Shown: positions 7,350-62,876 of the stretch, piece after piece
How the letters are laid out: each line of letters opens with the position of its first letter
Numbering within the stretch: the stretch's first letter is position 1
Assembly: GCA_003223645.1 (NCBI GenBank)
Contig: QHVT01000005.1
Span: 62,001-126,000 of the forward strand
Source of the DNA: Acidobacteriota bacterium
Lineage (GTDB): Bacteria; Acidobacteriota; Thermoanaerobaculia; Gp7-AA8
DNA length: 64,000 bases
Reading direction: 5' to 3'
Notes under the pieces: generated by a model
What the model saw: the letters and a program-made list of their open reading frames with translations, nothing else
Databases searched by the model: none
What the model was told of the DNA's origin: nothing
Position numbers and translations under genes: made by a program

Positions 7350-7855
7350 TATGCAAATAATTGTAACGTAAACGGGGTGAGCCGCGGAATCCAGCGCCGC
7401 ACGTTCTCGCAATACAGCTTGTAGTCGTCGCCGAATAGCTCGCGCAATTTCGGCTCTTCGTACAACATCACGAATCCGTTCACGAGCGCCCAGAGGATCA
7501 GCAGCATGATGAGGATCTCCCGGGCGATGTTCGGGATCAGGAGCGCCTCGCCGCCCAACGCGAAGCCCATCCCGAGGTACATCGGATTGCGGACCCGGCG
7601 ATAGAGACCGCGCACGACGAGACGCCGCGGCGGATCGAACGGCGCGGGCGTGCCGCGGCCCGTCCACGCAAAGTCCCACACGCAGCGCAGCATGATCAGC
7701 GCGCCGATCGCGAGGAGCGCGAACGCGATCGGATTCGCGTTCGCCTCGAAGGCAACGCCCTTCGATTGCGCGAACCAGCGTGGAAGAAACCACATCCAAA
7801 TCGAGACGAAGAGCGGGGCGATGACGGCGGCACGGAGGATGGCGAAGAGGCGCAT
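7349..7855 (-). CDS. Isoprenylcysteine methyltransferase-like membrane protein
   Basis: A 168-residue integral membrane protein with four or five hydrophobic segments. It contains RGLYRRVRNPMYLGM (about 87-101) and a C-terminal YEEPKLRELFGDDYKLYC segment, the AdoMet-binding signature of the ICMT/phospholipid N-methyltransferase group. Bacterial members methylate lipids or small thiols; the substrate here cannot be read. The ATG at 7855 (MRLFAIL) is chosen because upstream codons belong to the tandem repeat at 7852-7928. The start codon itself coincides with a repeat unit (GCCTATGCGCC). Confidence 0.8.
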   Translation of the reverse strand: MRLFAILRAAVIAPLFVSIWMWFLPRWFAQSKGVAFEANANPIAFALLAIGALIMLRCVWDFAWTGRGTPAPFDPPRRLVVRGLYRRVRNPMYLGMGFALGGEALLIPNIAREILIMLLILWALVNGFVMLYEEPKLRELFGDDYKLYCENVRRWIPRLTPFTLQLFA

Positions 7856-7928
7856 AGGCTCCTGGGCGCATGGGCTCACAGCTCTATGAGTCTTTGAGCC
7901 TTTGAGCCACTGCGCCTGTCAGCCTATG
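7852..7928. repeat. GGCTCATG-type tandem octamer block
   Basis: Degenerate 8-bp units of the type GCGCATGG / GCTCATAG between two divergent genes. Similar blocks lie at 14886-14966, 25222-25275, 25680-25766, 58299-58398 and 62625-62876. Confidence 0.75.
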
Positions 7929-7936
7929 ATCGCATC

Positions 7937-9052
7937 ATGACCACGGCCCCCGCCACAGAAGTGCCGATCGCTCACACCGATCCGATCAACGCGCAGATCC
8001 TCGCCGTCTCCGAGGATCGCATTCAGGGATTCGTCGAAGATCCGTTCGGAGAGATCGCGAACAAAGCGGGGCTCGACGTCGAGCTGGTGATGGAGCGCAT
8101 CCGCGCGATGCTGCAGGCGGGGACGATCCGCCGTGTGCGGCAAACGTTGATGGCGACGAATCTCGCTGAGGGAGCGCTCGTGGCGTGGCAGTTCCCGAAT
8201 GAGAAGCTCGATGAGGCATTCGACTTCATGTTTCGCGAGGATCCGTTTTCGGGACACGTCGTCATCCGCTCGACGGACGCCGCGACGCCGGGATCGAACT
8301 ATCGACTGTGGACGACCGTCAAAGTGCCGCAGGGCTACTCGATCGAGAAGCACTGCGCGATTCTCGCGAAGCTCACCGGCGCGCTGCATTTCCGCGTGAT
8401 GCCGGCCCACCGCATCTTCGCGCTAGGCGTCGGCCACGTGCGACGCAAAGGGATGGAGCCGGGCTCGAAGTCGGACGAGCTGGCGGAAGTGAAGGACACG
8501 GCGAAAGTCGAGCTCTCCGATCTCGAGTGGCAGGTGCTGACCGCACTGAAACGCGAGCTGACGCCGGACGAGGTCGTGCGCGATGTCTGGGAGCGCCGCG
8601 CGGAAGAAGCGGACCTGCTTCCCGACATCTTCAACGCCGTCGCTGCGAACCTCAACGCGCGCGGCGTGATCGGACGCTTCTCGACCTTTCTCGAACATGT
8701 GAAGACACTGCAGACCGGCGATCGCGTGACGCGCTTCAACGCGCTCTTTCACTGGGCCGTTCCGCCGGGACGCGAAATGGAAGCGGGACGCGAGATCGGC
8801 CGCTTTCACATCCTCACGCACTGCTACTGGCGCGAAGGCGGCGAAGAGTTCCGCAACGTGAACATCATGGCCGTCGCGCACGGAACCGAAAAGGAAAGCG
8901 TGCTCGCGCACAAACGCGCGATCGACGAGCATCTCGCGTCGATCGGGATGCCGGTCTCGTACACGAACGTGTTCTGGGGCGGACGCAGCGAGATCAAGCC
9001 GAGCGAGATCTCGCCGATTGCGTATCGGGAGTGGCTGTCATCCCGAGCGTGA
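7937..9052 (+). CDS. Two-domain Lrp/AsnC-like protein, probable fused siroheme decarboxylase
   Basis: 371 residues made of two similar halves (about 14-175 and 195-365). Each has a winged-helix-like start (FGEIANKAGLDVELVMERIRAML; LPDIFNAVAANLNARGVIGR) and an AsnC-like alpha/beta part. Half two has RFNALFHWAVPP and FRNVNIMAVAHG, resembling AhbB, and half one resembles AhbA. AhbA/AhbB (and NirD/L/G/H) decarboxylate siroheme to didecarbosiroheme for heme or heme d1. These are normally separate chains of about 150-170 residues, so this looks like a fusion. A classical Lrp regulator is the alternative. No other heme gene is nearby. The last residues (SSRA) and the stop codon are encoded by the repeat starting at 9036. 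Confidence 0.55.
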   Translation: MTTAPATEVPIAHTDPINAQILAVSEDRIQGFVEDPFGEIANKAGLDVELVMERIRAMLQAGTIRRVRQTLMATNLAEGALVAWQFPNEKLDEAFDFMFREDPFSGHVVIRSTDAATPGSNYRLWTTVKVPQGYSIEKHCAILAKLTGALHFRVMPAHRIFALGVGHVRRKGMEPGSKSDELAEVKDTAKVELSDLEWQVLTALKRELTPDEVVRDVWERRAEEADLLPDIFNAVAANLNARGVIGRFSTFLEHVKTLQTGDRVTRFNALFHWAVPPGREMEAGREIGRFHILTHCYWREGGEEFRNVNIMAVAHGTEKESVLAHKRAIDEHLASIGMPVSYTNVFWGGRSEIKPSEISPIAYREWLSSRA

Positions 9053-9139
9053 GCGAGGGAGCCGGGGCTCGGGTGGCGGCACGAAGCTCGTGCAACGCAG
9101 CCCCGCCCGCCCAGGTCCCTCGCTACGCTCGGGATGACA
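9036..9139. repeat. GTCATCCCGAGCGTGAGCGA palindromic element
   Basis: Opens TGTCATCCCGAGCGTGAGCG and closes with the reverse complement CTCGGGATGACA; the inner arms GAGGGA/TCCCTCGC and a variable GC-rich loop complete a long hairpin. Sister copies lie at 16253-16348 and, in frame in thiL, at 19129-19220. The first bases overlap the 3' end of the preceding gene and supply its TGA. Confidence 0.85.
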
Positions 9140-9183
9140 TCAGCGAATCGACAGTCCGATCGCGATCGCGCCGATCGCGCGGC

Positions 9184-14072: not shown

Positions 14073-14909
14073 TTACGGCCGGCGGCGCATGAACGACTTG
14101 TACTCGCTCGCGTAGCGATCTTCGCGCGGGGCGAGCTGCCGCGCGGTCACGTAGTGCAGCTCCGCGGCCTGAGCATCGCCAAGCGCCTCGCACACGGCGG
14201 CGAGGTTGTAATGCAGCGCAGCGCTTCGCGGATCCTGCCGCAGCGCGCGCTGCCAGATCTCGCGCGCATCGCCGAGCTCTCCGACGTCGATGCGCGCGAA
14301 TCCTTCGTCGAAGGCAGGCGCATTCGGATCGAGCTGGATCGACTCGCGCACGCGTCGCGGCGTGATGCGGTCGGCCGCATTCACCGCCGCGTAGCGCGTC
14401 GCCTGATCGAGCGCGATGTTCTTCTCCTCGTCCGTCAGCTCGTCGACGCGCGGCGACGTCCCCTCCCCTTTCACGAGATACGAGACCTGCTGCTTACCCG
14501 CGGATACGTCGACGCGAGCCGTGCAGATCGCATCGCTCCAGACGAACTGCCGCCGCGCTTTTTTTCCGTCGACGTCGTACGCGTTCCCTTCCGCCGTTCC
14601 TTTCTTGGACTCGCAGGTGAACGACTTCACGGAGAGATACGCATCCGCTTTCATGTCGCCGCCGCGCCGCGCGTCGCGCATGCGCAGCGTCCCGCCGCGA
14701 TTGACCTGCTCGATGAAGCGCTCGACGAACGCGTCGACTTTCGTCGTGTCGCCGATCGCGCGCACGACAGCGATCGTTTCGATGTCGCCCAAATCATGCG
14801 GCGCGGGGACGTGGTGTTCGAACGTGATACGCGGCGCAGCCGCGAGGAATGGTCCGGCCAGAACGAACAGCAACCCCACCAGCCGGGGCGCATGGGCGCA
14901 TAGGCGCAT
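14073..14909 (-). CDS. Secreted protein with C-terminal TPR units
   Basis: 278 residues if translated from the ATG at 14909. A hydrophobic N-terminus (LVGLLFVLAGPFLAAAP) suggests export. The middle part (about 30-170) has no recognised domain. Residues about 195-270 contain two TPR-like units (DAREIWQRALRQDPRSAALHYNLAAVCEALG). The only upstream ATGs lie in the tandem repeat at 14886-14966, so the start may have been created by the repeat; a GTG within LVGLL is a shorter option. Function unknown. Confidence 0.65.
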   Translation of the reverse strand: MRLCAHAPRLVGLLFVLAGPFLAAAPRITFEHHVPAPHDLGDIETIAVVRAIGDTTKVDAFVERFIEQVNRGGTLRMRDARRGGDMKADAYLSVKSFTCESKKGTAEGNAYDVDGKKARRQFVWSDAICTARVDVSAGKQQVSYLVKGEGTSPRVDELTDEEKNIALDQATRYAAVNAADRITPRRVRESIQLDPNAPAFDEGFARIDVGELGDAREIWQRALRQDPRSAALHYNLAAVCEALGDAQAAELHYVTARQLAPREDRYASEYKSFMRRRP

Positions 14910-14966
14910 GGGCTCATAGTAGCTCCTCTGAGCCTATGCGCCTGTGAGCCTGTGAGCCCGTGCCTA
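14886..14966. repeat. GGCTCATG-type tandem octamer block
   Basis: Degenerate 8-bp units (GCGCATGG, GCTCATAG, CCTATGCG) between the TPR gene and arcA. It overlaps the first codons assigned to the TPR gene (14909). Confidence 0.75.
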
Positions 14967-14981
14967 TAGAATCCCGTCCGC

Positions 14982-16247: not shown

Positions 16248-16252
16248 TGTGA

Positions 16253-16348
16253 TGTCATGCCGAGCGTTAGCGAGGCACCTGGGCGGGCGGTGACACAGGA
16301 CGCGCGCCTCCCACCCTCCCAGGTTCCTCGCTGACGCTCGGGATGACA
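16253..16348. repeat. GTCATCCCGAGCG palindromic element between arcA and arcC
   Basis: Second copy of the element at 9036-9139 (opens TGTCATGCCGAGCGTTAGCG, closes CTCGGGATGACA). It lies between the arcA stop (16247) and arcC. The ATG taken as the arcC start (16343) is part of the closing CGGGATGACA arm. Confidence 0.85.
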
Positions 16349-18659: not shown

Positions 18660-19675
18660 ACGAAGCCGCGCTCGTGGCACGTGCGCGCGAGCTGTTCTCG
18701 AATCGCATCGGCGACGACGCCGCGGTCATCGACGGACAAGTGATGACGGCGGACATGCTCGTCGAAGACGTCGACTTCACGCGGTCGACGCCGGTCCGCT
18801 TGATCGCGCGGAAAGCGCTGGCGGTGAACCTCTCCGATCTCGCGGCGATGGGCGCGCAGCCGGCGTACGCGCTGCTCTCGCTCGCGCTGCCGCCGTGGGC
18901 GCACGAAAAGGCGGATGAGTTGCTGGCGTCGTTCGCTGAGGCGGCGAAGCAGCACGCGATCGAGATCGTCGGTGGCGATTTCTCGCGCGGCGAGAAGCTG
19001 ACGATCGCGATCACGGCAATCGGAAAGATCGTCACGCGTCCGCTCTTGCGCAGCGGCGCGAAGCCGGGCGATCGCATCTATCTCTCGCGTCCGATCGGCG
19101 GAAGCGCGACGGGACTGCACCTCCTCGATGTCATCCCGAGCGTGAGCGAGGGACCTGGGCGGGCGGGGCCACGCAACGCGCACCCACCCGCCCAGGTCCC
19201 TCGCTACGCTCGGGATGACATGAGTTACGCGGAGCGCGAGTTCGCCGAGTCGGCGATTCGACGTCAGCTCGATCCCGAGCCGGAAGTCGCGCTCGGACTC
19301 GCGCTCGCGCGCATCGCGGAAGTCACGTCGTGCATCGACGTCTCGGACGGCCTCTCGACCGATCTTCATCATCTCTGCGATGCATCGAATTGCGGCGCGG
19401 AGATCGAGCGCGAGCGCATCCCGATCTTTCCCGATCTTCTCTCCTACGGCCCGCGCCTCGGCATCCGCGCGCGTGATGTCGTGCTGCACGGCGGCGAAGA
19501 GTACGCGCTCCTCTTCACGTCATCATTGCGTGAGGCAGAGCTGAGCACCCGCGTCGGACGTCCCGTGTACAACATCGGAAGAATGACGCGCGATCGCGCG
19601 GTGATGTTGAAAGAAGACGGCGTCGCACAGCCGCTCGAAGCGCAGGGCTTCGAGCACTTTGCGTCGTCATCCTGA
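18656..19675 (+). CDS. thiL: Thiamine-monophosphate kinase with in-frame repeat insertion
   Basis: 339 residues. It phosphorylates thiamine monophosphate to the diphosphate cofactor. Motifs: IGDDAAVID (about 16-24), MTADMLVEDVDFTRS (about 28-42), AVNLSDLAAMGAQPAYALLSLALP, EIVGGDFSRGEKLTI, ISVSDGLSTDLHHL-type segment (CIDVSDGLSTDL) and HGGEEYALLF. Residues about 158-189 are encoded by a palindromic repeat (19129-19220) inserted in frame between the GLHLLD helix and the AEREF segment, where other ThiL proteins have a short loop. The stop codon (19673-19675) lies in a second, unrelated repeat. Translationally coupled to truA. Confidence 0.92.
   Translation: MNEAALVARARELFSNRIGDDAAVIDGQVMTADMLVEDVDFTRSTPVRLIARKALAVNLSDLAAMGAQPAYALLSLALPPWAHEKADELLASFAEAAKQHAIEIVGGDFSRGEKLTIAITAIGKIVTRPLLRSGAKPGDRIYLSRPIGGSATGLHLLDVIPSVSEGPGRAGPRNAHPPAQVPRYARDDMSYAEREFAESAIRRQLDPEPEVALGLALARIAEVTSCIDVSDGLSTDLHHLCDASNCGAEIERERIPIFPDLLSYGPRLGIRARDVVLHGGEEYALLFTSSLREAELSTRVGRPVYNIGRMTRDRAVMLKEDGVAQPLEAQGFEHFASSS
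19129..19220. repeat. GTCATCCCGAGCG palindromic element inside thiL
   Basis: Same family as 9036-9139 and 16253-16348: TGTCATCCCGAGCGTGAGCG on the left, CTCGGGATGACA on the right, with GGGACCTGGGCGGG / CCCGCCCAGGTCCC inner arms. It is translated in thiL as VIPSVSEGPG...VPRYARDDM with no stop, adding about 31 residues. Confidence 0.9.
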
Positions 19676-25178: not shown

Positions 25179-25221
25179 CTGAGTGAGAAACGCGCGGGAC
25201 GGGAAAAGGTTCCGGGCGGGG

Positions 25222-25275
25222 CTCAGAGGCGCATGGGCGCATGGGCTCATGGGCTCATGGGCTCATGGGCTCAGA
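25222..25275. repeat. GGCTCATG-type tandem octamer block
   Basis: GGCGCATGGGCGCATGGGCT-type units repeated about six times. The end of the neighbouring four-helix-bundle gene (residues PLSP and its TGA, 25263-25274) is made of these units. Confidence 0.8.
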
Positions 25276-25622
25276 GGGGTGCGGTGGTCGATCATTTTGG
25301 TGAGGCCGGAGCCAATCTTCGCGATCAGGGTGCGCGTGTCATTCAGGTCCGAAGCCAGACCGCAGCGCATGATGACTTCTAGTTGCGTCTCCACCTCATA
25401 AAGTGATCCGCGCGCCTGCACCAGATAGTGACGGCGATCGCGATCGGTCGTGCGTCCCTCACCTTCGGCAATATTGCTCGGAACAGAAAGCGCCGCTCTC
25501 ACGAGCTGATCTGCAATGGCAAACCGCTTTCTCGCAACGAGGTCGTCCGCCAACCCGATCATCCGTACCGCCAAGTCGACAGAGGCCTCCCACACAAACA
25601 AATTACGAAACGAATTTTTCAT
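25263..25622 (-). CDS. Four helix bundle protein (S23/IVP family)
   Basis: 119 residues. NLFVWEASVDLAVRMIGLADDLVARKRFAIADQLVRAALSVPSNIAEGEGR is the hallmark of the four-helix-bundle family first seen as 23S rRNA intervening-sequence proteins and also found in diversity-generating retroelements. Here there is no rRNA or reverse transcriptase nearby. The last four residues and stop are encoded by the tandem repeat block, so the original C-terminus may have been different. Function unknown. Confidence 0.85.
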   Translation of the reverse strand: MKNSFRNLFVWEASVDLAVRMIGLADDLVARKRFAIADQLVRAALSVPSNIAEGEGRTTDRDRRHYLVQARGSLYEVETQLEVIMRCGLASDLNDTRTLIAKIGSGLTKMIDHRTPLSP

Positions 25623-25679
25623 CTGAATTGCCGGCGCCGAGGAGGGACGAAACGCGCCCGTGTGGAGTGCAATGATATC

Positions 25680-25766
25680 TCACTCTGAGCCCATGAGCCT
25701 CTGAGCCCATGAGCCTTTGTGCCCGTGAGCCTCTGAGCCCATGAGCCTCTGAGCCCCTGCGCCTAT
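25680..25766. repeat. GGCTCATG-type tandem octamer block
   Basis: CTGAGCCCATGAGCCT-type units, about ten in a row, between two genes on the minus strand. The block starts exactly at the TAG stop of the large TPR gene (TAG followed by GCGCAGGGGC). Confidence 0.8.
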
Positions 25767-28700
25767 TTCCGCGCGTCTTCCAACTGCTTGATCCGACTCA
25801 CGATATCGCGGTAGTTCGAGTTCATCCCGTACACCTCCATGAACGCTTTCTGCGCGTTGTCGGTGTCGCCGACTTCCTGGTAGGCGGAGCCGAGGTCGTA
25901 CAGGAGGCCGACGTGCTCCTCCTCGGTGATCTCGGGGATCTCGAGGCCTTTGCGATACCACTTGATCGCGAGCTGGGGCATGCCTTTCTCGAGGAAGCAG
26001 AGGCCGAGCATGGACGCGCACTCGACGGCGCGCTTGGGATCTTTCGACGCGAGCTGGAACTCGCCGATGGCTTCGTCGATGAGGCCCATCTCCTTGTAGG
26101 CGATGCCGAGGTTGTAGTGCGTGTCGTAGTCTTCGCTGTCGAGCTGCTGCTCGACGCCCTTCTTGAACTCCTTGAAGATCTCTTCGAGCGACTGTTCTTC
26201 TTCGGACAGCGAGATCGGCTCCTCATCCTCGGCGAGCTCGGACTCGAGCTCCGCGGCGAGGTCGAAGAAGTTGTCTTCGTCGGCGAAGAGATTCTGCTCT
26301 TCGGCGAGCGCGGCGGTCATCAGCGGCGCGGGCGGCTCGATCGCTGGGGGTGGGGGTGGAGGTGGAATCGGCGCGGCGATTTCTTCGTCTTCGTCGGGGA
26401 TGGCGGAGAGCAGCTCACTCTCGATCTCGTCGCGCGAGAGCACGGGAGGCTTCGGCGCGGACGACGGTGGAATCGCGGCTGCGATTTGCGCGGCTTCGAG
26501 GTTCGCGCGGCGCGTGGCGAGGTTCGCCTCGCCGGGGAAGCGCGCCTCGAGCGTCTCGAGCTTGCGCTTCGCTTCCTCGAACAACTCCTGTTCGATGTAG
26601 AAGTCGATCTCGCCGATTTCTTCGAGCGGCAATTCTTCGACTTCTTCGTGCGCGAGCGATTCGACGCCGAAGAACGGCTCTTCTTCCGCGACGGCCGGCT
26701 CGGACTCTTCTTCTTCGAGCGCAATCAGCGGCTCGTCCGGCACGAGCAGCTGCACCGGCATGAAATCGATCTCTTCTTCCGCTTCGAGCTCGAGCAACGG
26801 CGCGGATTCAGGCTCCGGCTCGAGGATCTCTTCCGCGGCCTGAAGATCGAACGCGACTTCCTCCACTTCTTCCACCGCCGGCGGCGGCTCTTCGACGGGA
26901 AACTCGAACGCGAGCTCGGGCTCCAGCGCGAGTGGTTCGGGCTCAGGCTCCGGTTCAGGCTCGGGTTCGGGTTCCGGTTCTTCGATCTCGAATTCGAGCA
27001 CGGACTCGGGCTCGAGGTCGAAGCTGATCTCTTCCGCGGTGTCGTTATAGTCGACCGGAATGCGCGTGTGGCGACCGCTGCCCTCAGCGGTCGCGGTGCC
27101 GCTGAGGGCAGCGGCACCCACATCGAACATCTCGCCGCGCGACGCGAACTCGTTGCGGATCGCGTCGATCGCCGCCGTGTCGCCTTGTTCCTGCGCGACT
27201 GCTGCATACGCGCGCGCGGCAACGTGCGCGCCTTCGACGTCGCCTTCTTCGAGCAGGATGCGGAACAGCCGCTCGTGCGCGATCAGGTTCGACGGCGCGC
27301 GCTCGAGCACCATTCGTAAATGCTCGGCTGCTTTTTCGGCGAGGCCGTATTTCGCGAAGACCTCGGCCTCGGTGAGATGTTCGGTGATGAAATCGAGATC
27401 GTCGCTCGCTTCGATGTCCGCCGACGCGATCTCCGGAGGAGGCGGCGGCGGCGGTGCGGGCATGCGCACGGGCTCGGGGGGCGGCGCGGGCGCGGGCATG
27501 TCCAGCGAGAAGTCGATCTCGAGCGACGGCGACGCGTCGAGCTCGAGGACCGGCTCGTTCGAGAAGTCGAACGTCGGCGTCGGCTCTTCGATCTCCAGCG
27601 ACGGGATCTCCGGCATCGGCGCGCGGGACGCTCGCTGCTGCGGAATCGTGTCGATGCCGCCCATCTGCGTGCGCACGAACTGCAGTTTGTTGCGATGCTG
27701 CGCGTTCTGCGGCTCGCGCTGGATCAGTTTCTCCAGCACCTTCGACGCTTCGTCGTACCGCCCCTTCGACACGTGCGCCTCGGCGAGGCTGTTCATCGCC
27801 GCCAGGATGTTCGTCTCTTCGTTGAGCCGCGTGTACACCGCGACGAGCCGCTCCAGCGTCGGCGCGTTGCCGGAGTCGACGCGCAGGATGCGGTTCAGCG
27901 TCTCGACCGCCGCGCCGCGCTCGCCGCGTGAGAGCGCCTTCTCCACGTTGGGCGTGAGCAGCTCCAGCGCGCGGTCGGCGTCGCCCTGGCGCAGATGCAA
28001 ATCCGCGAGCGCCTCGCGGATCGTCGGCTCGTTCGGGTCCGCCTGCATCGCGCGCTCGAGGTTCGCGCGCGCGCCCGCCGCGTCGCCGCGCGCGAGCTGA
28101 ATCTTTCCCTGCATCGCGAGGAGGCGCGGATTGTTCGCGTTCATCTCCAGCGCGGTGTCGACGAGCTGCTTCGCGTTCTCGTAGTCCTTCGCCTCGATCA
28201 GCGCCGTGACGAGCGAGTCGACGAGATCGACGTTGCGCGGATCGATCTTCAGCGCCTTGCGGAAGACCTGCACCGCTTCGTCGAGCATGCCGCGCTTGAG
28301 CAGCATGCGTCCGACGCGATCGAACTCCTTGAGCGCTTCGGCGGCCTGATTGTTCGCGGAGTAGAGATCGGCGAGCTTGACGTGGACGTTGATCGAGTTC
28401 GGATCGAGCTCGGAGATTTTCTTGTAGATGCCGAGGGCGTTTTTCGGATCGCCGTGCTTCAGGTAGTAATCGGCGAGAACCTGGTACTGGCTCTTCGCCT
28501 CCATCGCCAGCCCCTGCTTCGCGTAGAGGTCGGCGAGCTTCGCGTAGATCTCCAGCTTCGACGGATCGAGCTTGTTGATCTTCTTGAAGATCGCGATCGC
28601 CTTGAGAAAGAAGCCGTCTTTCCCGTAGTGATCGGCGATGCGCGTGAAGACCTTCACCGCCTCATCGTTGCGATTGATGCGGACCCAGAGGTCTCCGATG

Positions 28701-28831
28701 CGATTGAGAGTGTTGACGTCGTTCGGGTTTTCGTCGAGGAGCCGTTCGTATTCCTTGATCGCCGGTTCGATCTTGCCTTTCGCCACCAGCTTTTCCGCGC
28801 TGGCGATGACTTTATCGCGTTGAACCGCCAT
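25763..28831 (-). CDS. Large TPR protein with acidic linker and in-frame repeat insertion
   Basis: 1022 residues, no signal peptide or membrane segment. Residues 1-390 are about ten TPR units (first: GKIEPAIKEYERLLDENPNDVN). Residues about 410-890 form an acidic, Pro/Glu-rich linker including an EPEPEPEPEPEP run. Residues about 895-1020 contain further TPR units (HYNLGIAYKEMGLIDEAIGEFQLASKDP). Within the linker, residues about 570-588 (VGAAALSGTATAEGSGRH) are encoded by a 56-bp palindrome also found in tal-pgi. Its start overlaps the rnhB 3' end by 20 bases. Proteins of this shape are common in deltaproteobacteria and Acidobacteriota; a cytoplasmic scaffold, perhaps for motility or polysaccharide systems, is only a guess. 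Confidence 0.85.
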   Translation of the reverse strand: MAVQRDKVIASAEKLVAKGKIEPAIKEYERLLDENPNDVNTLNRIGDLWVRINRNDEAVKVFTRIADHYGKDGFFLKAIAIFKKINKLDPSKLEIYAKLADLYAKQGLAMEAKSQYQVLADYYLKHGDPKNALGIYKKISELDPNSINVHVKLADLYSANNQAAEALKEFDRVGRMLLKRGMLDEAVQVFRKALKIDPRNVDLVDSLVTALIEAKDYENAKQLVDTALEMNANNPRLLAMQGKIQLARGDAAGARANLERAMQADPNEPTIREALADLHLRQGDADRALELLTPNVEKALSRGERGAAVETLNRILRVDSGNAPTLERLVAVYTRLNEETNILAAMNSLAEAHVSKGRYDEASKVLEKLIQREPQNAQHRNKLQFVRTQMGGIDTIPQQRASRAPMPEIPSLEIEEPTPTFDFSNEPVLELDASPSLEIDFSLDMPAPAPPPEPVRMPAPPPPPPPEIASADIEASDDLDFITEHLTEAEVFAKYGLAEKAAEHLRMVLERAPSNLIAHERLFRILLEEGDVEGAHVAARAYAAVAQEQGDTAAIDAIRNEFASRGEMFDVGAAALSGTATAEGSGRHTRIPVDYNDTAEEISFDLEPESVLEFEIEEPEPEPEPEPEPEPEPLALEPELAFEFPVEEPPPAVEEVEEVAFDLQAAEEILEPEPESAPLLELEAEEEIDFMPVQLLVPDEPLIALEEEESEPAVAEEEPFFGVESLAHEEVEELPLEEIGEIDFYIEQELFEEAKRKLETLEARFPGEANLATRRANLEAAQIAAAIPPSSAPKPPVLSRDEIESELLSAIPDEDEEIAAPIPPPPPPPAIEPPAPLMTAALAEEQNLFADEDNFFDLAAELESELAEDEEPISLSEEEQSLEEIFKEFKKGVEQQLDSEDYDTHYNLGIAYKEMGLIDEAIGEFQLASKDPKRAVECASMLGLCFLEKGMPQLAIKWYRKGLEIPEITEEEHVGLLYDLGSAYQEVGDTDNAQKAFMEVYGMNSNYRDIVSRIKQLEDARK
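27067..27122. repeat. 56-bp palindromic element inside the TPR gene
   Basis: Two hairpins in a row (GGTGCCGCTGCC/GGCAGCGGCACC-type and GCGACCGCTGCC/GGCAGCGGTCGC-type) bounded by TGTG and CACA. It differs at one base from the element at 59823-59878 once reverse complemented. It is read in the TPR protein in the same orientation and frame as in tal-pgi. Confidence 0.9.
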
Positions 28832-41912: not shown

Positions 41913-42742
41913 TCAGGCCCTCCCCCCCCACAACAAAGTAGTCGTAGCGAGGCATCTCCGAAGCATCACATTTTCGTTCCCCGCCTGAATCGCTGTCTAA
42001 CGCTTTTCCTCCGCCAATCCCAAATACCCCACACCCTCCCCGTAATACCCCGCGCAGCGGGAGCGAGGGCCACCAACACCAACATTGACGTTGGTTGGCC
42101 TTTCGCGCCGCTTGGGAGGGAGAGGTGGAACTGAGCGGAGCGAAGGGCCGGATGAGGGTTGTGGTTCTTCAGTTCAGGCCATTGGCGCTGGCTTGTCCTC
42201 GCCGCACCGCGGGTCTCTGCGCACAGTGATCCCCGGTTTGGCGGCAAAGCCGTCGTCATGACCGATCGGCCGACTTTCTCTCCCGTGGGAAGGCGGGATC
42301 AACATCCTCCTGGCTGCTTGACCTCGGCGTCAACGAGCGATGCACCCCGGCGGCGGTTCGTCGCCACGATCGATCAGAGGGTGCCAGCCGTATTTCTCGG
42401 CCAGCTCCTGGACGCGCCGAATATCGGGCTTCCGTCGCTTCGGGCCGCTCGATGATTGGTGGCTCGTCGAGCACGTCGGGCGGCCGGTCCGATTTCTCAT
42501 CAGCCGGCCGCACCATCTGATCCTGTGACATGCATGGAAGCTCAGCGCCTTTTCACGACTGGAGCCGGATCCCCGCCGCATCGATCTTCTCGTACACCCA
42601 TTGCGGCAGGCAGAGATCGAGCTTGTCGGCGCGGCAGTTGGAATGGCAGACGATCGTGGCCACCTGAAAGCAGCGCGGGAAGTCGAAGGTCGTCGAGGGG
42701 TAGTAGAAGACCGGATCGATCTCGTGACGGTGGCAGATGTCG
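41913..42742. repeat. Segmental duplication, copy A
   Basis: About 830 bases that recur, diverged, at 53704-56174 (copy B). Shared landmarks: TTGTACTCAG near the left edge, AAAGTAGTCGTA, TCGCTGTCTAACGCTT, CCACCAACACCAACATTGAC, GTTCAGGCCATTGGCGCT, GATCAACATCCTCCTGGCTG and the 3' end of the amidase gene (42553-42742). Bases 41913-42552 contain no convincing gene: small frames are open in both copies, but their substitutions show no coding bias. Confidence 0.85.
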
Positions 42743-46137: not shown

Positions 46138-46434
46138 GTGCGCCAGCACCAGCACCTGGAAAAATTCGAGCCGCTGAACGTCGAATACCGCGAGACGTTC
46201 TTCGACGCATATCTGCGGCTCGACGTCTCTTCCGAGACATTTCGCGCGCTGATGAACCTCCTCGATAAGGCCATCAAAGATGGAGAAGAGGTGCGGAGGC
46301 TGAGCACCTCGAAATTGCGGGTGATCCGGACGCCCGCCGGCTCATGCCTGCGCCCCATGCGTCTGTATTTCCTCGTCGAGCACCGAACGTTGCATTTCGT
46401 ACACATCGAGTACTACGACGAGGACTATCCCTGA
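46138..46434 (+). CDS. Small protein downstream of XRE gene, possible toxin
   Basis: 98 residues from a GTG at 46138. FRALMNLLDKAIKDGEEVRRLSTSKLRVIRTPAGSCLRPMRLYFLVEHRTLHFVHIEYYDEDYP: alternating beta strands after a helix, loosely like RelE/HigB-type toxins, and encoded next to an XRE protein. The catalytic residues of RelE are not clearly present, so this is only a candidate. The end of the gene overlaps the minisatellite by a few bases. Confidence 0.55.
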   Translation: MRQHQHLEKFEPLNVEYRETFFDAYLRLDVSSETFRALMNLLDKAIKDGEEVRRLSTSKLRVIRTPAGSCLRPMRLYFLVEHRTLHFVHIEYYDEDYP

Positions 46435-46784
46435 CGAGGGCTCGAGGTCGAGCCTCGAGGGCTCACGGTCAAGCCTCCAGGGCTTACGGTTAAGCCTCCA
46501 GGGCTTACGGTTAAGCCTCCAGGGCTTACAGTTAAGCCTCCAGGGCTTATGGTTAAGCCTCCAGGGCTTACGGTTAAGCCTCCAGGGCTTACGGTTAAGC
46601 CTCCAGGGCTTACGGTTAAGCCTCCAGGGCTTACGGTTAAGCCTCCAGGGCTTACGGTTAAGCCTTCAGGGCTTACGGTTAAGCCTCCAGGGCTTACGGT
46701 TAAGCCCCCAGGGCTTACGGTTAAGCCTCCAGGGCTTACGGTTAAGCCCCCAGGGCTTACGGTTAAGCCTCCAGGGCTTACGGT
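46428..46784. repeat. 21-bp minisatellite, about 17 units
   Basis: Tandem array with core CCTCCAGGGCTTACGGTTAA plus G, about 17 units over 357 bases. The middle units are nearly identical; the outer ones, toward 46430, are diverged (GAGGTCGAGCCTC types). The 21-bp period keeps all frames open: minus reads TVSPGGL, plus reads VKPPGLT. It fills the space between two convergent genes (46435-46821). Confidence 0.95.
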
Positions 46785-46821
46785 TGAACGCAGCACGGCC
46801 TGTCCCCTCGGAACTCAGCTC

Positions 46822-48351
46822 CTAGCTGGCGGCCGCGAATGCCGAGTCGGGGTTGGCCCGCAGCGAGCCGATGAACCGCTGCACGTGCCGTACGGTCGTC
46901 CCCGACGCCTTGCGTGCGGCGATGGCCTCGCTCAGAAACCGGAGGGCCGTAATTGCGCGCGAGTTGAGTCTCGCCGCGGTGAACTCCCGCACGATCTGCC
47001 GCGCGAAGACCTCCGCTTCGATCGGCGCACCTCTCGTGAGATGCGCCTCGACGACATCCAGTCCGCACAACCCCGCCTCTTCGACCAGGTTGTGCCGGAG
47101 GAGCTCCTCGCGAACGCGGTGGAGATGCCCGATTCCCTGTTCGAGGGCACCTCTCCGGATCATCAACCGGCCGCGCGCCAGCTCCGCGCGCGCCACCTGG
47201 AGCGGCGAGGCGATCCCGGCGAACAGCCGCACCGCCTCTGACAGGTGAGACTCCGCAAGAGCAAAGTCGCCCAGCTCGATGGCCGAGTGGCCAAGATTGT
47301 TGTGGATGCTGGCCACGGCATCGGTGCCGGCGACTTCTTCCGCGAAGGGGAGCAGCGAGCGGTATAGGTCACACGCCTCGCGATACCTTTCGGTGCGATG
47401 CAGCAGCGCTCCCTCGCTGATGCCGCAGAACAGCCGCCCGCGGCTGTCGCCGTACTCTTCGAACACGCGCTGGCATTCGCGAAGGAGCAGCATCGCCTCT
47501 TCGAAGCGGCCGGCTTCCTGAAGCGTCGCCCCGCGGGCGATGCCGATGGCGGCCCTGGCGAGCTCCTCCCGCTCGAGGGGAAGCACCGCTGCCGCGCGGT
47601 CGAAGGCGGCGAGCGACTCCTCGTACCGTGCGAGCAGGCGCAGCGCGGTCGCGTGATCGCGCCACGCCACCGCCGCGCCGCGCGACGCCTCCGCAAGCCG
47701 CGCCGCGATCGCCACCGCCAACCGCGTCACGACGAGCGCCTCGGTTGGCGCCCGGTGGACCCGGACATTGAATTGCCGGCTCAGCTCATGAAGCACGCCT
47801 GTGCCGTGCAATTCCGGCCGTTCCGCCAACTCCGGCCACGCGGCCGCGGGCGTCTCCTCCAGCATCCGCTCGACGAGCGTGTGGACTCGTTCTTCCTCCT
47901 GAAGCTGCTGCCGCACGACGGCGGCATCGCGCCCGACTGCCTCCATCTCATCGGGTAACGCCGGCGGGAGTCCGAACGCCTGGATCGACTGCTCGTACGA
48001 TCCCAGGGCGGCGCGCAGATCGCCGGCATCCCGCAGCGCATCCCCCCGCAGCCGCCATCCGTGAACACGCAGAAGCGTCCGCACCGGCTCAGCATCGGCG
48101 GGCAACCCGACCCGATCGGCATGCGCGAGGACGAAATCAGCGATTGCCCGGGTGCGAGGGTCGCTCGCCGCCGCATGAAGCATGGCCTGCAACGTGTGGA
48201 GCGTCGCCGCCTCAGGGTGCGCCGCCAGCCATCCGTTCCAATCCACGGCCGGCTGACTCAGGATCTCGGCGGCGTTGCGGGATCCCTCGCCGCGGCCGGC
48301 CGCCAGCCACTCGGCGAAGGCCCCGATTCTCGCGACGTTCTCCTCGCGCAC
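46822..48351 (-). CDS. TPR-repeat protein, 509 residues
   Basis: Begins MREENVARIGAFAEWLAAGRGEG. Degenerate TPR pairs run over about 100-470: RDAGDLRAALGSYEQSIQAFG, RLLARYEESLAAFDRAAAVLP, ELGDFALAESHLSEAVRLFAG and ALEQGIGHLHRVREELL. No signal peptide and no kinase, protease or HTH domain. Base composition is host-like (GC-rich), unlike the genes at 38-42 kb. Similar stand-alone TPR proteins occur in Acidobacteriota; function unknown. Confidence 0.8.
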   Translation of the reverse strand: MREENVARIGAFAEWLAAGRGEGSRNAAEILSQPAVDWNGWLAAHPEAATLHTLQAMLHAAASDPRTRAIADFVLAHADRVGLPADAEPVRTLLRVHGWRLRGDALRDAGDLRAALGSYEQSIQAFGLPPALPDEMEAVGRDAAVVRQQLQEEERVHTLVERMLEETPAAAWPELAERPELHGTGVLHELSRQFNVRVHRAPTEALVVTRLAVAIAARLAEASRGAAVAWRDHATALRLLARYEESLAAFDRAAAVLPLEREELARAAIGIARGATLQEAGRFEEAMLLLRECQRVFEEYGDSRGRLFCGISEGALLHRTERYREACDLYRSLLPFAEEVAGTDAVASIHNNLGHSAIELGDFALAESHLSEAVRLFAGIASPLQVARAELARGRLMIRRGALEQGIGHLHRVREELLRHNLVEEAGLCGLDVVEAHLTRGAPIEAEVFARQIVREFTAARLNSRAITALRFLSEAIAARKASGTTVRHVQRFIGSLRANPDSAFAAAS

Positions 48352-53600: not shown

Positions 53601-53981
53601 ACGCATTCTCCGTGTGTTAGGCGATGGCGTTAGTACCATCCGCAACAGTATAGCAGGCTCTGAGATCAGGCAGTTCGTCGTTATGTCAAGAAGGTCGTCC
53701 GGCTAACTTGTACTCAGCCGTTACCCGACGACAAAGTAGTCGTAACGAGGCATCTCCGCAGGATCACGTTTTCGTTACCCGCTTGAATCGCTGTCTAACG
53801 CTTCTGCTCCGCCAATCCCAAATACCCACATCCCTCCCCGTAATTCTCCGCATAGCGGGAGCGAGGGCCACCAACACCAACATTGACGTTGGCTGCCTTT
53901 CGCCCCTCTTGGGAGGGAGAGGTGGAACTGAGCGGAGCGAAGGGCCGGATGAGAGTTGTGATCTTCAGTTCAGGCCATTGG

Positions 53982-55421
53982 GGACACATGACAGCATGAA
54001 GAGGTCAGTTGGGATGACAAAACATGGCAAGTGTCAGCATGAAAAGGTCACTCGTGTTGGATAGGTGCAAAGCGGCGGCGAGGCAGAGTGTATTGGTGCT
54101 CAACAAGGAGCGGCTGGTTCGACGGATCGCGCCGACGAAGCGCAAGGAAGCGAATGACGTAGGCGTCGAGATCGACCTCAGCGCGAACGAGTCTTTGGGT
54201 CCACGAAGGATCGATGAGGAAAGGACGTCCGAGAACTGAGAGCACTCCGCGATCATCAGTACGTCGGATGAAAATGACTGTGCCGCAGGGATGCGCTTGA
54301 AGGTCGAGAGCGGCGTAGGCCGGCATCGCACGTCGCGATGGAGCCTGTTCGATCCTGAGCGTATGGCGACGCCGCGCGGCGGCGATGTAGCGCTCGGAGT
54401 GTTCGAGAAGCTCGAACAGAGTTACTCGTTCGAAGCGATGCCAGGCCTTGGCCTGCCATCGACCATTCAGACTCTCGATCGCGGCTTGGAACCCAGGCTC
54501 CCGAGGCGGGGCAAAGACGGGAATCACGCCAAGTAGCAGGCAGGTCCGCATGACACGTCCAATGACATCGGTGTACCGATTCGAGCCGACGAACACGTTG
54601 CCATTGTCGAACTGCGAGGCAACCCGAATTGAGTCAATGCTGGACGAGCAAAGAAGCCGTCCGTTCGGCTGTAATCGAATGTTCGGGCCAGGACGTAACT
54701 AGTCCTCCATGCAATGAGATACCGTTGAGCACGACAACTTCGACGCCACCGGCGAGCACGAGTCCCGAGACGATGTCGAACGAATCGAGCTCGGCTTGCC
54801 GAGCAGCAACTTCGGGCAAGTACCACCCAATCGGTGGAGCAACTCTGCGCACTCGGCGCTGAGAGTCGAGTGCTCCACTGCGCTCTATGATTCGTCCGAT
54901 GGTCCTGACCGACGGCGGCTTCTCGCTCCCACGCTCGAGCAAGGCTGCGTAGATTGCCTCAGCTCCGTGCTCACCAAGATCGCTCGCCTTGACGAGTTGT
55001 TCACGGATGGCCACGACCAGCATCTCCACAGCGCGCTCGGTGCGGTTGATCGGGCGGAGTCCGGCTCTGGTCTTGCCCGTCCAGTCGACACGGTCCAATC
55101 GTTGCCCCGCCGCGTGCCGCACCCACCGTTGAATCACCGACAAGCTGACGTGGAACTCGCGTGCCGTTTCGCGCAACTTGCCACCAGCGCGGACTCGTTC
55201 GACCATCCGCCTGCGGCGTTGTCCGGCGCTTCTGCTCGATCGGCTCCTACTCTGTTTTTTGCTCGCAATCTAAACTCGCTTTTTGTCGAGTATCACCCTT
55301 TCGGGTATTTGAGGAAGAATTGCCGCTATCGCGAGAAGTCACGCTTTTCGACCCAAGGTCACTACACCAAGTGACCTCGTCATGATGGCATCTGGGTGAC
55401 CTTGTCACGCTGACACTTGGC
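53982..55421. mobile_element. Insertion sequence with integrase-core transposase
   Basis: Interrupts copy B exactly within GTTCAGGCCATTGGCGCT. The 8-bp GCCATTGG occurs at both junctions (53974-53981 and 55422-55429) as a target-site duplication. Each end carries two copies of a motif of the type TGTCAGCATGAAAAGGTCAC (left 53986-54008 and 54029-54051; right 55396-55418 and about 55369-55392, inverted). The 54029 and 55396 copies match at 21 of 23 positions. It encodes one frameshifted transposase. Confidence 0.85.
54048..55206 (-). pseudogene. Frameshifted HTH/rve integrase-core transposase
   Basis: From 55206: MVERVRAGGKLRETAREFHVSLSVIQRWVRHAAG (HTH), then DSFDIVSGLVLAGGVEVVVLNGISLHGG with the first catalytic aspartate. 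After LLVQH (about 54634) a stop appears; shifting by one base continues DSIRVASQFDNGNVF (second aspartate), IPVFAPPREPGFQAAIESLNGRW (glutamate) to 54048. Resembles IS481-like integrase-core transposases. The single shift inside the catalytic core is most likely a mutation; the position is not typical for programmed frameshifting. Confidence 0.8.
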
Positions 55422-55801
55422 GCCATTGGCGCTAGCTTGTCCTCGCCGCACCGCCGCGGGTCTCTGCGCACGTGATCCCCGATTGGCGGCGGCAAAGCCA
55501 CCTTCACGACCGATCGGCCGGCTTTCTACCGTGGAAAGGTGTGATCAACATCCTCCTGGCTGCTGGTATGACCTCGACGTCAACGAGCGATTTACCCCGG
55601 CGGCGGTTCGTCGCCACGTTTGATCAGATGGTGCCAACCGTATTTCTCGACCAGCTCTCGGACGCGCCGAATATCGGCCTTCCGTCACTTCGGGCCGCTC
55701 GATGATTGGTGGCTCATCGAGCACCTCGGGCGGCCGGTCCGCTTTCTCATCAGCTGGCGGCACCATCTGATCGTGTGACATGCATTAAAGCTTAGTGCAG
55801 C

Positions 55802-55964
55802 TCCCCGGAAACAGTGTCCGGTCAGCGGGGCGGCGGGGACGCCGCCCGTCCAGCCGGCGAGGACGCCGGCGTTCTATCGTCGGCAACACCCTGGGAACGC
55901 CGGCGTCCCCGCCGGCTGGTCAGGCGGCGTCTCGCCGCCTGCACTGGACACTATTTTGCGGGGA
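55802..55964. mobile_element. MITE-like element, 163 bp
   Basis: Terminal inverted repeats TCCCCGGAAACAGTGTCC (left) and, reverse complemented, TCCCCGCAAAATAGTGTCC (right). The interior is made of GC-rich hairpins (GCCGGCGAGGACGCCGGCG, CAGGCGGCGTCTCGCCGCCTG) and has no ORF. Copy A lacks it: AAGCTCAGCGC there versus AAGCTTAG/ACTCAGCGC at the edges here, which gives the empty site. Confidence 0.8.
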
Positions 55965-55971
55965 AATGTAC

Positions 55972-56174
55972 TCAGCGCTTTCTCACGACTGGAGCCGGAT
56001 CCCCGCCGCCCTCGATCTTCTCGTACACCCACTCCGTCAGGCAGAGATCGAGCTTGTCGGCGCGGCAGTTGGAGTGGCAGACGATCGTGGCCACCTGAAA
56101 GCAGCGCGGGAAGTCGAAGGTCGTCGAGGGGTAGTAGAAGACCGGATCGATGTCGTGACGCCGACAGATGTCGT
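55972..56174 (-). pseudogene. 3' fragment of the PGRP-type amidase gene
   Basis: Encodes about 67 residues (DICRRHDIDPVFYYPSTTFDFP..., CHSNCRADKLDLCLTEWVYEKI) closely matching the C-terminal third of the intact amidase at 42553. The N-terminal two thirds, including the first zinc histidine, are missing. The extreme C-terminus is shifted by an indel and differs. Part of duplication copy B. Confidence 0.9.
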
Positions 56175-57626: not shown

Positions 57627-58301
57627 GTGAGTCGACCGCGAATGCTCCAGTTGATCGCGGGCATTGCCGTGCTCGCGCTCGTCGTCATCGCCATTCGCAT
57701 GCTGCCCGTCGCGGAGTGGCTCGAGGCGTTCAAAGCGTGGGTGCAGGGTCAGGGTGCGCTCGGCTACGTGCTGTACGTCGTCGCGTACATCGTCTGCTGC
57801 GTCTTCGTGATCCCCGCGCTCGCGCTGACGCTCGGCGCCGGCGCGATCTTCGGCTTCGTCGCCGGCTCGATCGTCGTCATCATCGGCGCCACCTTGGGAG
57901 CGATCGTCGCGTTTCTCCTCGCGCGTGGCGTGCTCCGCCGTCGCGTCGAGCGCATCACCGCGAATCACGTGAAGTTTCGCGCGCTCGACCGCGCCATCAC
58001 GCGCGAAGGCACGAAGATCATGTGGCTGGTGCGTCTGTCGGGCTTCCCGCCGTTCACATGGGTCAACTACGCCTTCGGCCTCACCGGCGTGCAGCTGCGG
58101 CCGTACATCATCACCACCTTCTTCGGCATCATCCCCGGCACGCTCGCCTTCACCTGGGCCGGCGCCGCCGGCGCGGCCGCGCTCACCGGCACCGGCAACC
58201 GGATTCTGCTGATCGTGACGGCCTGTGGCGCAATCCTCGTGAGCGTGTTCATTGCACGCATCGCATTGCAGGCGATTCGACGGGCCGGAGTCGAGGAGTA
58301 G
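57627..58301 (+). CDS. TVP38/TMEM64-family membrane protein
   Basis: 224 residues from a GTG at 57627 (VSRPRMLQLIAG). Hydrophobic helices with the VTT-domain core: FVIPALALTLGAGAIFGFVAGSIVVIIGATLGAIVAFLLARGVLRRRV (about 60-107), RLSGFPPFTWVNYAFGLTGVQLRPYIITTFFGIIPGTLAFTWAGAA (about 136-181). DedA/TVP38 proteins act in lipid scrambling or envelope homeostasis. The TAG stop is directly followed by the tandem octamer block. Confidence 0.88.
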   Translation: MSRPRMLQLIAGIAVLALVVIAIRMLPVAEWLEAFKAWVQGQGALGYVLYVVAYIVCCVFVIPALALTLGAGAIFGFVAGSIVVIIGATLGAIVAFLLARGVLRRRVERITANHVKFRALDRAITREGTKIMWLVRLSGFPPFTWVNYAFGLTGVQLRPYIITTFFGIIPGTLAFTWAGAAGAAALTGTGNRILLIVTACGAILVSVFIARIALQAIRRAGVEE

Positions 58302-58398
58302 GCCCGCATGGGCTCATAGGCTCATGGGCGCATGGGCTCATAGGAGCTGCGGCGGACGGATCTATGAGCCTATGAGCCCATGCGCCCATGAGCCTTTC
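58299..58398. repeat. GGCTCATG-type tandem octamer block, inverted
   Basis: TAGGCCCGCATGGGCTCATA units, then the complementary run TATGAGCCTATGAGCCCATG, so the two halves can pair. The first units follow the stop of the preceding gene without a gap. Confidence 0.85.
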
Positions 58399-58440
58399 AC
58401 GGCATTATGCTTGCCGCTTCAATCTCGGAGGAAACACGCA

Positions 58441-61209: not shown

Positions 61210-62618
61210 ACGAGTCGCAGTTCGGAATGATCGGCCTCGGTGTGATGGGCGCGAACCTCGCGCTCAACGTCGAAGACCACGGTTTCTCCGTCGCCGTCTG
61301 GAACCGCGAAGCCGATCGCGTGAAGTCGTTCATCGCCGAGAACAGCGGAAAGAAATTCACCGGCACGACCGAGCTGACGGACTTCGTGCGCGCGATCGCG
61401 CGGCCGCGGCCGATCATGATGATGATCAAGGCCGGCGCGCCGGTCGACGAAATGCTCGACAAGCTCGTGCCGCTCCTCGACGAAGGCGATGTCGTCATCG
61501 ACGGCGGCAACTCCTGGTTCAAAGACACGCAGACGCGCAACGCGCGGCTCGCGAATACGAAACTGCACTTCGTCGGATCGGGAGTCAGCGGCGGCGAAGA
61601 AGGCGCGCGCTACGGCCCGTCCCTCATGCCCGGCGGAACAGCCGAGTCGTGGGAGCACATCCGCCCGATCTTCGAGGCGATCGCCGCGAAGAGCGACTCC
61701 GGTCCCTGCGTCACGTACTGCGGCACCGACGGCGCCGGCCATTACGTGAAGATGGTGCACAACGGGATCGAGTACGGCGACATGCAGCTAATCGCCGAGG
61801 CGTATGACCTGTTGCGAAGAGGACTCGGATGCAGCGCGGACGAGCTGGCGTCGATCTTCGACGAATGGAACAAGGGTCCGCTGCAGTCGTTCCTCATCGA
61901 GATCACGGCAAAGATTTTCCGCGTGCGCGATTCGGAAACGAACGCGCCGCTCGTCGACAAAATCCTCGACAAAGCGGGGCAAAAGGGAACCGGCAAATGG
62001 ACCGCGCAGGTCGCGCTCGACTTGACCATTCCGATTCCGACGATCGCCGCGGCGATCGACGCGCGCGTGCTCTCCAGCATGAAAGACGAGCGCGTTCGCG
62101 CATCATCGATGCTGAACGCCTCCGCACCCGCGCGCCCGGAAAATCGCGATCAATTCATCAAAGACGTCCACGACGCGCTCTACGCCGCGAAAATCTGCTC
62201 CTACGCGCAGGGCATGGCGCTCATCCAGGCCGGCAGCCGCGAATGGAAGTGGGACATCGACATGCGCGAGATCGCGCGCATCTGGAAAGCCGGCTGCATC
62301 ATCCGCGCGAAGTTCCTCGACTCGATCATGCGCGCGTACGAGCGCGATAAAACGCTGCCGAACCTGCTCCTCGACGAAGCCTTCCGCGCCGACATCACGT
62401 CATCCCAACAGGCCTGGCGCCGCTGCGTCGCCTACGCGCAGACAAACGGCATCCCCACTCCCGCGTTCTCCGGCTCCCTCGCCTACTTCGACAGCTACCG
62501 CACCGCCAACCTGCCGCAGAACCTCACCCAAGCCCAGCGCGACCTCTTCGGCGCGCATACCTATCAGCGCAACGACAAAGGCGCGGACGCGCCGTTCATT
62601 CACACGGACTGGGAGTGA
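61206..62618 (+). CDS. gnd: 6-phosphogluconate dehydrogenase (decarboxylating)
   Basis: 470 residues. Rossmann motif GLGVMGANLALNVEDHGF (about 9-26), then GVSGGEEGARYGPSLMPGG (about 126-144), DGAGHYVKMVHNGIEYGDMQLI with catalytic lysine and the substrate-binding segment, and C-terminal AQRDLFGAHTYQR. It converts 6-phosphogluconate to ribulose 5-phosphate with NADPH formation. Start overlaps tal-pgi stop. Together the two genes cover the reductive and transaldol arms of the pentose phosphate pathway. Confidence 0.97.
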   Translation: MNESQFGMIGLGVMGANLALNVEDHGFSVAVWNREADRVKSFIAENSGKKFTGTTELTDFVRAIARPRPIMMMIKAGAPVDEMLDKLVPLLDEGDVVIDGGNSWFKDTQTRNARLANTKLHFVGSGVSGGEEGARYGPSLMPGGTAESWEHIRPIFEAIAAKSDSGPCVTYCGTDGAGHYVKMVHNGIEYGDMQLIAEAYDLLRRGLGCSADELASIFDEWNKGPLQSFLIEITAKIFRVRDSETNAPLVDKILDKAGQKGTGKWTAQVALDLTIPIPTIAAAIDARVLSSMKDERVRASSMLNASAPARPENRDQFIKDVHDALYAAKICSYAQGMALIQAGSREWKWDIDMREIARIWKAGCIIRAKFLDSIMRAYERDKTLPNLLLDEAFRADITSSQQAWRRCVAYAQTNGIPTPAFSGSLAYFDSYRTANLPQNLTQAQRDLFGAHTYQRNDKGADAPFIHTDWE

Positions 62619-62624
62619 GACGCA

Positions 62625-62876
62625 GGCTCATAGGCTCACAGGCGCATAGGCTCATAGCTCTTCTATGAGCCCATGAGCCTCTACGCCTCTGACCCTTTCT
62701 ATGAGCCCATGAGCTCTACGCCTCTGAGCCTTCTATGAGCCCATGAGCCTCTGCGCCCCTGAGCCTTTCTATGAGCCCATGCGCCTCTACGCCTCTGAGC
62801 CTTTCTATGAGCCCATGCGCCTCTGCGCCTCTGAGCCTTCTATGAGCCCATGAGCCTCTGCGCCCCTGAGCCTCTA
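62625..62876. repeat. Long GGCTCATG-type octamer array with 35-bp superperiod
   Basis: Longest such array in the window (about 250 bases). Basic 8-9 bp units (GAGCCTCT, GCGCCTCT, ATGAGCCC) are organised in a higher-order unit of about 34-37 bases starting TTCTATGAGCCCATG, which occurs five times (about 62698, 62732, 62767, 62804 and 62839). The last unit supplies the TAG stop of the phospholipase D gene. Confidence 0.85.

Follow-up and report, generated by a model that had tools for sequence, protein, structure and literature searches.

A 56-bp palindromic element that lies in frame in two unrelated genes of the window (the whole stretch of 64,000 nucleotides analysed here) is very probably a compact REPIN, a BIME-type REP dimer, and its spread by a RAYT acting in trans, the filtering of its insertions by reading frame and the loss of target sequence would form part of the same explanation. 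Judged from sequence, the element appears to provide the same 18-amino-acid linker in about thirty unrelated, apparently working proteins, nearly always in one frame. The preliminary description of this DNA had proposed a protein-tolerated mobile repeat resembling the Rickettsia palindromic elements. That reading of a mobile in-frame repeat is supported by further copies in the genome and by the absence of the element from orthologues; it had missed the assignment to the RAYT-associated REP/REPIN class and the replacement of target residues.

The first copy occupies positions 27067–27122 on the minus strand of the window and lies in frame (phase 2) in the gene of a 1022-aa TPR-repeat protein (25763–28831, minus strand), assigned by Pfam TPR matches and orthologues. 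It reads VGAAALSGTATAEGSGRH, lies where the last conserved TPR region gives way to an acidic low-complexity tail, and is absent from 9/9 orthologues. Two hairpins are defined on the minus strand by the DNA fold and by stem-type covariation, one at 27095–27118 (GGTGCCGCTG-CCCT-CAGCGGCACC) and the other at 27071–27094 (GCGACCGCTG-AGGG-CAGCGGTCGC). The second copy (59823–59878, plus strand) reads VGAAAPSGTATAEGSGRH, also in phase 2, within tal-pgi (58252–61209, plus strand), which encodes a bifunctional transaldolase/phosphoglucose isomerase according to Pfam TAL_FSA and PGI matches and PGI matches in the PDB. Its hairpins, supported by the same fold and covariation, are found on the plus strand at 59827–59850 (GGTGCCGCTG-CCCC-CAGCGGCACC) and 59851–59874 (GCGACCGCTG-AGGG-CAGCGGTCGC). 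The structure model of the PGI is poor (mean pLDDT 59) and places the element in a low-confidence loop. A direct read of the DNA reproduces the two positions given in the preliminary description, the common peptide VGAAA(L/P)SGTATAEGSGRH, and the single base that distinguishes the copies after reverse complementing, which falls in the first loop (CCCT or CCCC); shuffled sequences gave 0 chance matches.

Other repeats were observed in the window. A tandem array with a 21-bp unit, equivalent to 7 codons, spans 46374–46856, and arrays of 8-bp units of the CTATGAGC / GCTCATAG type, often facing each other, are located at 25212–25281, 25667–25773, 58287–58404, 62617–62882, 7841–7934 and 14871–14976. 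Inverted TGTCATCCCGAGCG...CTCGGGATGACA repeats are found at 9036–9143, 16251–16348 and 19127–19224, and dispersed blocks of 66–230 bp each, 88–95% identical and in the same order, at 41926–42742 and 53724–56173.

Repeats were gathered by pattern and BLAST searches from the genome to which the window belongs (6.38 Mb, 51 contigs). In its common orientation the element is TGTGG GTGCCGCTG CCCT CAGCGGCACC GCGACCGCTG AGGG CAGCGGTCGC CACA. The genome contains 44 copies, 42 beyond the two in the window: 42 of the total have at most 3 mismatches in a 47-bp core, and two with a 1-nt deletion were recovered, beyond the pattern search, by BLAST and inspection of the loci. An exact fit to the pattern is found in 25 of the 42 core-matched copies, with 0 for the reversed control, and the ends are whole or nearly whole in 41/42. 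The same core search returned 0 copies in 100 related genomes, one of them of the same genus. When a wider collection was scanned with the pattern of half an element, at least three contigs from unrelated organisms were among the matches listed. The identical 18-residue peptide across many proteins could in principle be a conserved motif native to them, convergent or ancient, with no insertion involved. This possibility is refuted for practical purposes, because copies in unrelated genes are mostly 96–100% identical at the nucleotide level, occur in both orientations, and are absent from all orthologues examined, including those of tal-pgi (4 genomes), of the TPR protein (9 genomes), of PanC and of others.

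The orthologues, from the same genus and the same family, lack the element and are mostly 8–16 residues shorter. PanC with the element is longer by a constant 12 aa than 4/4 orthologues, and the net gain is 16 aa in PGI (4/4), 15–16 aa in saccharopine dehydrogenase and 12–14 aa in LigD; a gain near 19 aa is found at few loci (L002, L006 and L028). Because the mere addition of about 57 bp would lengthen a protein by 19 aa, approximately 8–32 bp of target are gone at most sites, and about 8 bp in tal-pgi. The single extra base at the junction that the preliminary description had invoked to keep the frame is thus not what the orthologues reveal. In PanC the element substitutes for the end of a helix (DVARDAGAN). 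According to the predicted model, whose core matches solved PanC structures, the first element residues lengthen the helix and the remainder forms a low-confidence loop. We infer that the element probably replaces target residues, rather than being simply inserted, through some mode of target loss. The loss could postdate insertion, since the closest comparison available is a relative of the same genus, about 45–85% identical in the carrier proteins. Insertion of the IS200/IS605 type is not known to involve target deletion. A rule of even numbers in the target losses (8, 14, 20, 26 and 32 bp) was considered and dropped, as odd values occur at other loci. Comparison of the element ends with orthologous DNA at the junctions gave no consistent microhomology.

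Each half of the element is a REP, with a 5' TGTGG, a 10-bp stem and a 4-nt loop (CCCT), and the two halves are inverted and abut. A half-site pattern with at most 1 mismatch finds 258 single-REP sites in the genome (reversed control 0), many of which pair as longer inverted REPINs of 83–99 bp with small hairpins between the REPs; the 56-bp form is without these. Among 145 REPs the outer stem triplets are CGA/TCG in 69, GTG/CAC in 44 and TGA/TCA in 26, so that 139/145 are fully paired and 6 are not. The stems vary on both sides yet stay paired, which identifies the hairpin as the conserved unit. As single-stranded DNA, a 58-mer adopts a clover, in which an outer stem carries two perfect hairpins, at −29.9 kcal/mol (z about −8, specifically −7.9), and 0 shuffles were as stable; a 'clover' fold is discussed for REPINs in PMC3116915. 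In RNA a long hairpin is favoured (−49 kcal/mol). At one locus (L024; G000:C51:114031-114110) the element is directly followed by a partial second REP, GCTGAGGGCAGCGGTCGCCACAA, which places three hairpin units in a row.

A profile search with Y1_Tnp (PF01797) matches one gene in the genome, which encodes 181 aa and contains the motifs HVH and YIFNNPVRAG. It is a RAYT-type HUH gene whose best PDB match is TnpA-REP (4ER8), and it has TGTGG hairpin REPs on both sides, with another stem (AGCGGCGCCCG-CTT-CGGGCGCC). The REP class of these flanks, TGTGGAGCGGCGCCCGCTTCGGGCGCCG, is present at 212 genome sites and differs in sequence from the CCGCTG class of the element. The 3' coding end of the RAYT gene (L119:1423-1968, on G000 contig C4 at about 53 kb) enters the flanking TGTGG REPIN, giving the C-terminus ELVERRPLRAPGSRDKSAAEAAAAPQDDELP. 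Several relatives carry RAYT-type genes with GTAG or GTGG hairpins nearby; in the same-genus relative a search for a RAYT-type gene gave no match. Because the stem of the flanking REPs (AGCGGCGCCCG...) is not that of the element, the enzyme is only a candidate mobiliser. The mismatch limits the claim on the enzyme and not the REP-dimer architecture, since several REP types can coexist in one genome, as stated in PMC3733652. The architecture is that of a RAYT/REPIN system, and we infer that this RAYT may move the CCGCTG class.

With its inverted-repeat ends TGTGG...CCACA, the short, non-autonomous, multicopy element could also be taken for a conventional MITE that a DDE transposase mobilises via its terminal inverted repeats. 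We regard this as highly improbable: no target-site duplication or direct repeat was seen at the 42 element junctions, and the orthologues reveal a net loss of target. The module, moreover, is a single hairpin with a 5' TGTGG that is combined in REPINs of several lengths, as REPs are, and a RAYT accompanied by TGTGG REPs is present.

REPs are extragenic by name. To assess the location of the element, 22 ORFs of the window were used to train a codon model, which was applied to 120 bp on each side, with an open frame through the element required. By this strict test 29/42 short elements are genic, as against 2/34 long REPINs in a sample drawn from the contigs that were listed first (Fisher P = 8e-9). 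For positions chosen at random in the window the same test gives 54–59% genic, so that the short form is not depleted from genes and the long form is. A mostly extragenic location, typical of REPs, is thus true of the sampled long REPINs (32/34 not genic) and untrue of the 56-bp form. Two long REPINs of this sample lie in genes, L185 (95 bp) in that of a maltokinase-like protein and L166 (90 bp) in that of a membrane protein; neither meets a stop along its length, and both finish in the AEGSG(T/R)H frame. A Pfam domain or an orthologue alignment extends across the 56-bp element in histidine kinases, ornithine cyclodeaminase, saccharopine dehydrogenase, an AMP-binding enzyme, PurL, PanC, a LigD-like ligase, a SAM methyltransferase, an IspE-like kinase, a TonB receptor, FecR, VanZ and others. 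The carriers have no function in common, and the insertions hit enzymes commonly needed for growth (PanC, IspE).

Each strand of the element has two stop-free frames, as had been described, and a third frame with TGA. Phase 2 (xWT GTG ... CAC Axx) is used by 28 of the 29 copies that are genic by the strict test, split 19 to 9 between the two orientations; the sole phase-1 copy (L008) uses the other open frame. Among loci supported by homology or Pfam the figure is 22/22. The preliminary description had emphasized that both window copies share orientation and frame. The constancy of frame extends to the genome, whereas the common orientation is an accident of two copies, both orientations being present in genes (20 and 9 copies by the strict test).

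Target choice could by itself produce this constancy, with no selection on the peptide, if insertion requires A/T on both sides, which in a GC-rich genome falls mostly on codon position 2. Such an account is in keeping with the frequencies of A/T by codon position (0.35/0.56/0.16, highest at position 2), with the A/T preference on both flanks of the 42 copies, and with the flanks of the long, mostly intergenic REPINs in the sample, which have A/T on the left in 33/34 and on the right in 32/34. In-frame replacements simulated with the observed A/T preference yield 68% in phase 2, a value that is exceeded by the observed 28/29 (P about 2e-4) and by the 22/22 homology-supported loci. Target choice as the whole explanation is therefore unlikely; it accounts for part of the bias, and the remainder probably reflects selection on the peptide. 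A further locus, L192 (1241-1295), holds a 55-bp copy in a peptidase S46 gene that enters the TGA frame and, through a 1-nt loop deletion, continues in the LSGRGAAEGSGTH frame. This frame correction points to selection on the reading frame and provides independent support for it.

In the paralogues L001 and L019 the element is located at the same junction and is 55/56 identical, with flanks that are 77% and 66% identical; the pattern suggests homogenisation or repeated use of the site. A difference of 1/56 between elements whose flanks are 66–77% identical would also be expected from exaptation, in which selection retains a useful linker, or its useful mRNA hairpin, and keeps the copies uniform, and the high stability of the RNA hairpin is in line with this. 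Such a role is nonetheless very unlikely, given carriers without a common function and the fact that recent spread or gene conversion also explains uniform copies.

Under the REPIN reading, copies of the element would spread as a single-stranded clover with the RAYT acting in trans, and insertions that put the gene out of frame, or that are read in the TGA frame, would be purged. Of the two open frames, the one usually tolerated would yield a small flexible linker rich in Ala, Gly, Ser and Thr (VGAAALSGTATAEGSGRH, or VATAALSGRGAAEGSGTH in the other orientation). Insertion would be accompanied at most sites by the target loss described above, and the linker would take the place of a loop or of a helix end. 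Long REPINs, in most of their frames, contain a stop or give peptides with Arg, Cys or Trp, which would keep them out of genes. The complete proposal, namely that a REPIN lineage has evolved a compact, spacer-less form, which encodes a harmless flexible linker in one and the same phase whichever strand is read and spreads through coding DNA by replace-type insertion (56 bp in, about 8–32 bp out), is held tentatively. If true, it would describe a form of replace-type REPIN mobility and a mode of protein loop evolution that are, as far as could be found, undescribed.

Rickettsia long ago raised the question of how palindromes can enter proteins and leave them intact. The present case offers about thirty parallel insertions in one genome outside Rickettsia, with extragenic sister repeats as an internal control, and frame choice, loop tolerance and insertion mode thereby become measurable. 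The RAYT is a testable enzyme, and the carriers provide a natural collection of positions at which proteins tolerate an 18-residue linker.

REPINs and BIMEs are REP dimers associated with RAYT transposases (PMC3116915, PMC2817692). The element resembles them in its 5' (T)GTGG tag and hairpin, inverted pairs, clover fold, high copy number and a RAYT gene with flanking REPs, and published REPs starting with (T)GTGG look alike (P. putida, TGTGGGAGCGGG...; P. fluorescens, GTGG...; S. maltophilia, GGTGGGTGCCG...CGGCAC). It differs in that the 56-bp form is spacer-less, mainly genic and confined to one frame, and in that the RAYT is flanked by REPs with a different stem. In the sections of PMC3733652 considered here, GTAG and CGTC REPs are reported inside ORFs as dimers or groups encoding 20–30 aa, most of them in Opitutus terrae and Rickettsia conorii, the affected genes include a DNA ligase, and RPE-4 and RPE-6 are equated with CGTC REPs. 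According to the same sections, REP monomers and dimers thus occur within ORFs as here, and intragenic copies having already been described, the REP class is not new. By contrast, nearly all genic copies examined in the present genome belong to one compact subclass, and residues are replaced and not added; the null test of the frame and the exclusion of long sisters from genes are likewise not among the points reported in those sections. The Rickettsia palindromic elements, as cited in PMC3733652, are similar in being palindromes in frame in many unrelated, probably functional proteins. They differ in the tag, CGTC for RPE-4 and RPE-6 in those sections and GTGG here, and in that the present genome bears a RAYT. 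To these precedents the present case adds a compact REPIN subclass that, of the genomes searched, occurs in this one alone and is mainly genic, with its frame tested against a null, its long sisters excluded from genes, and residues of its hosts replaced.
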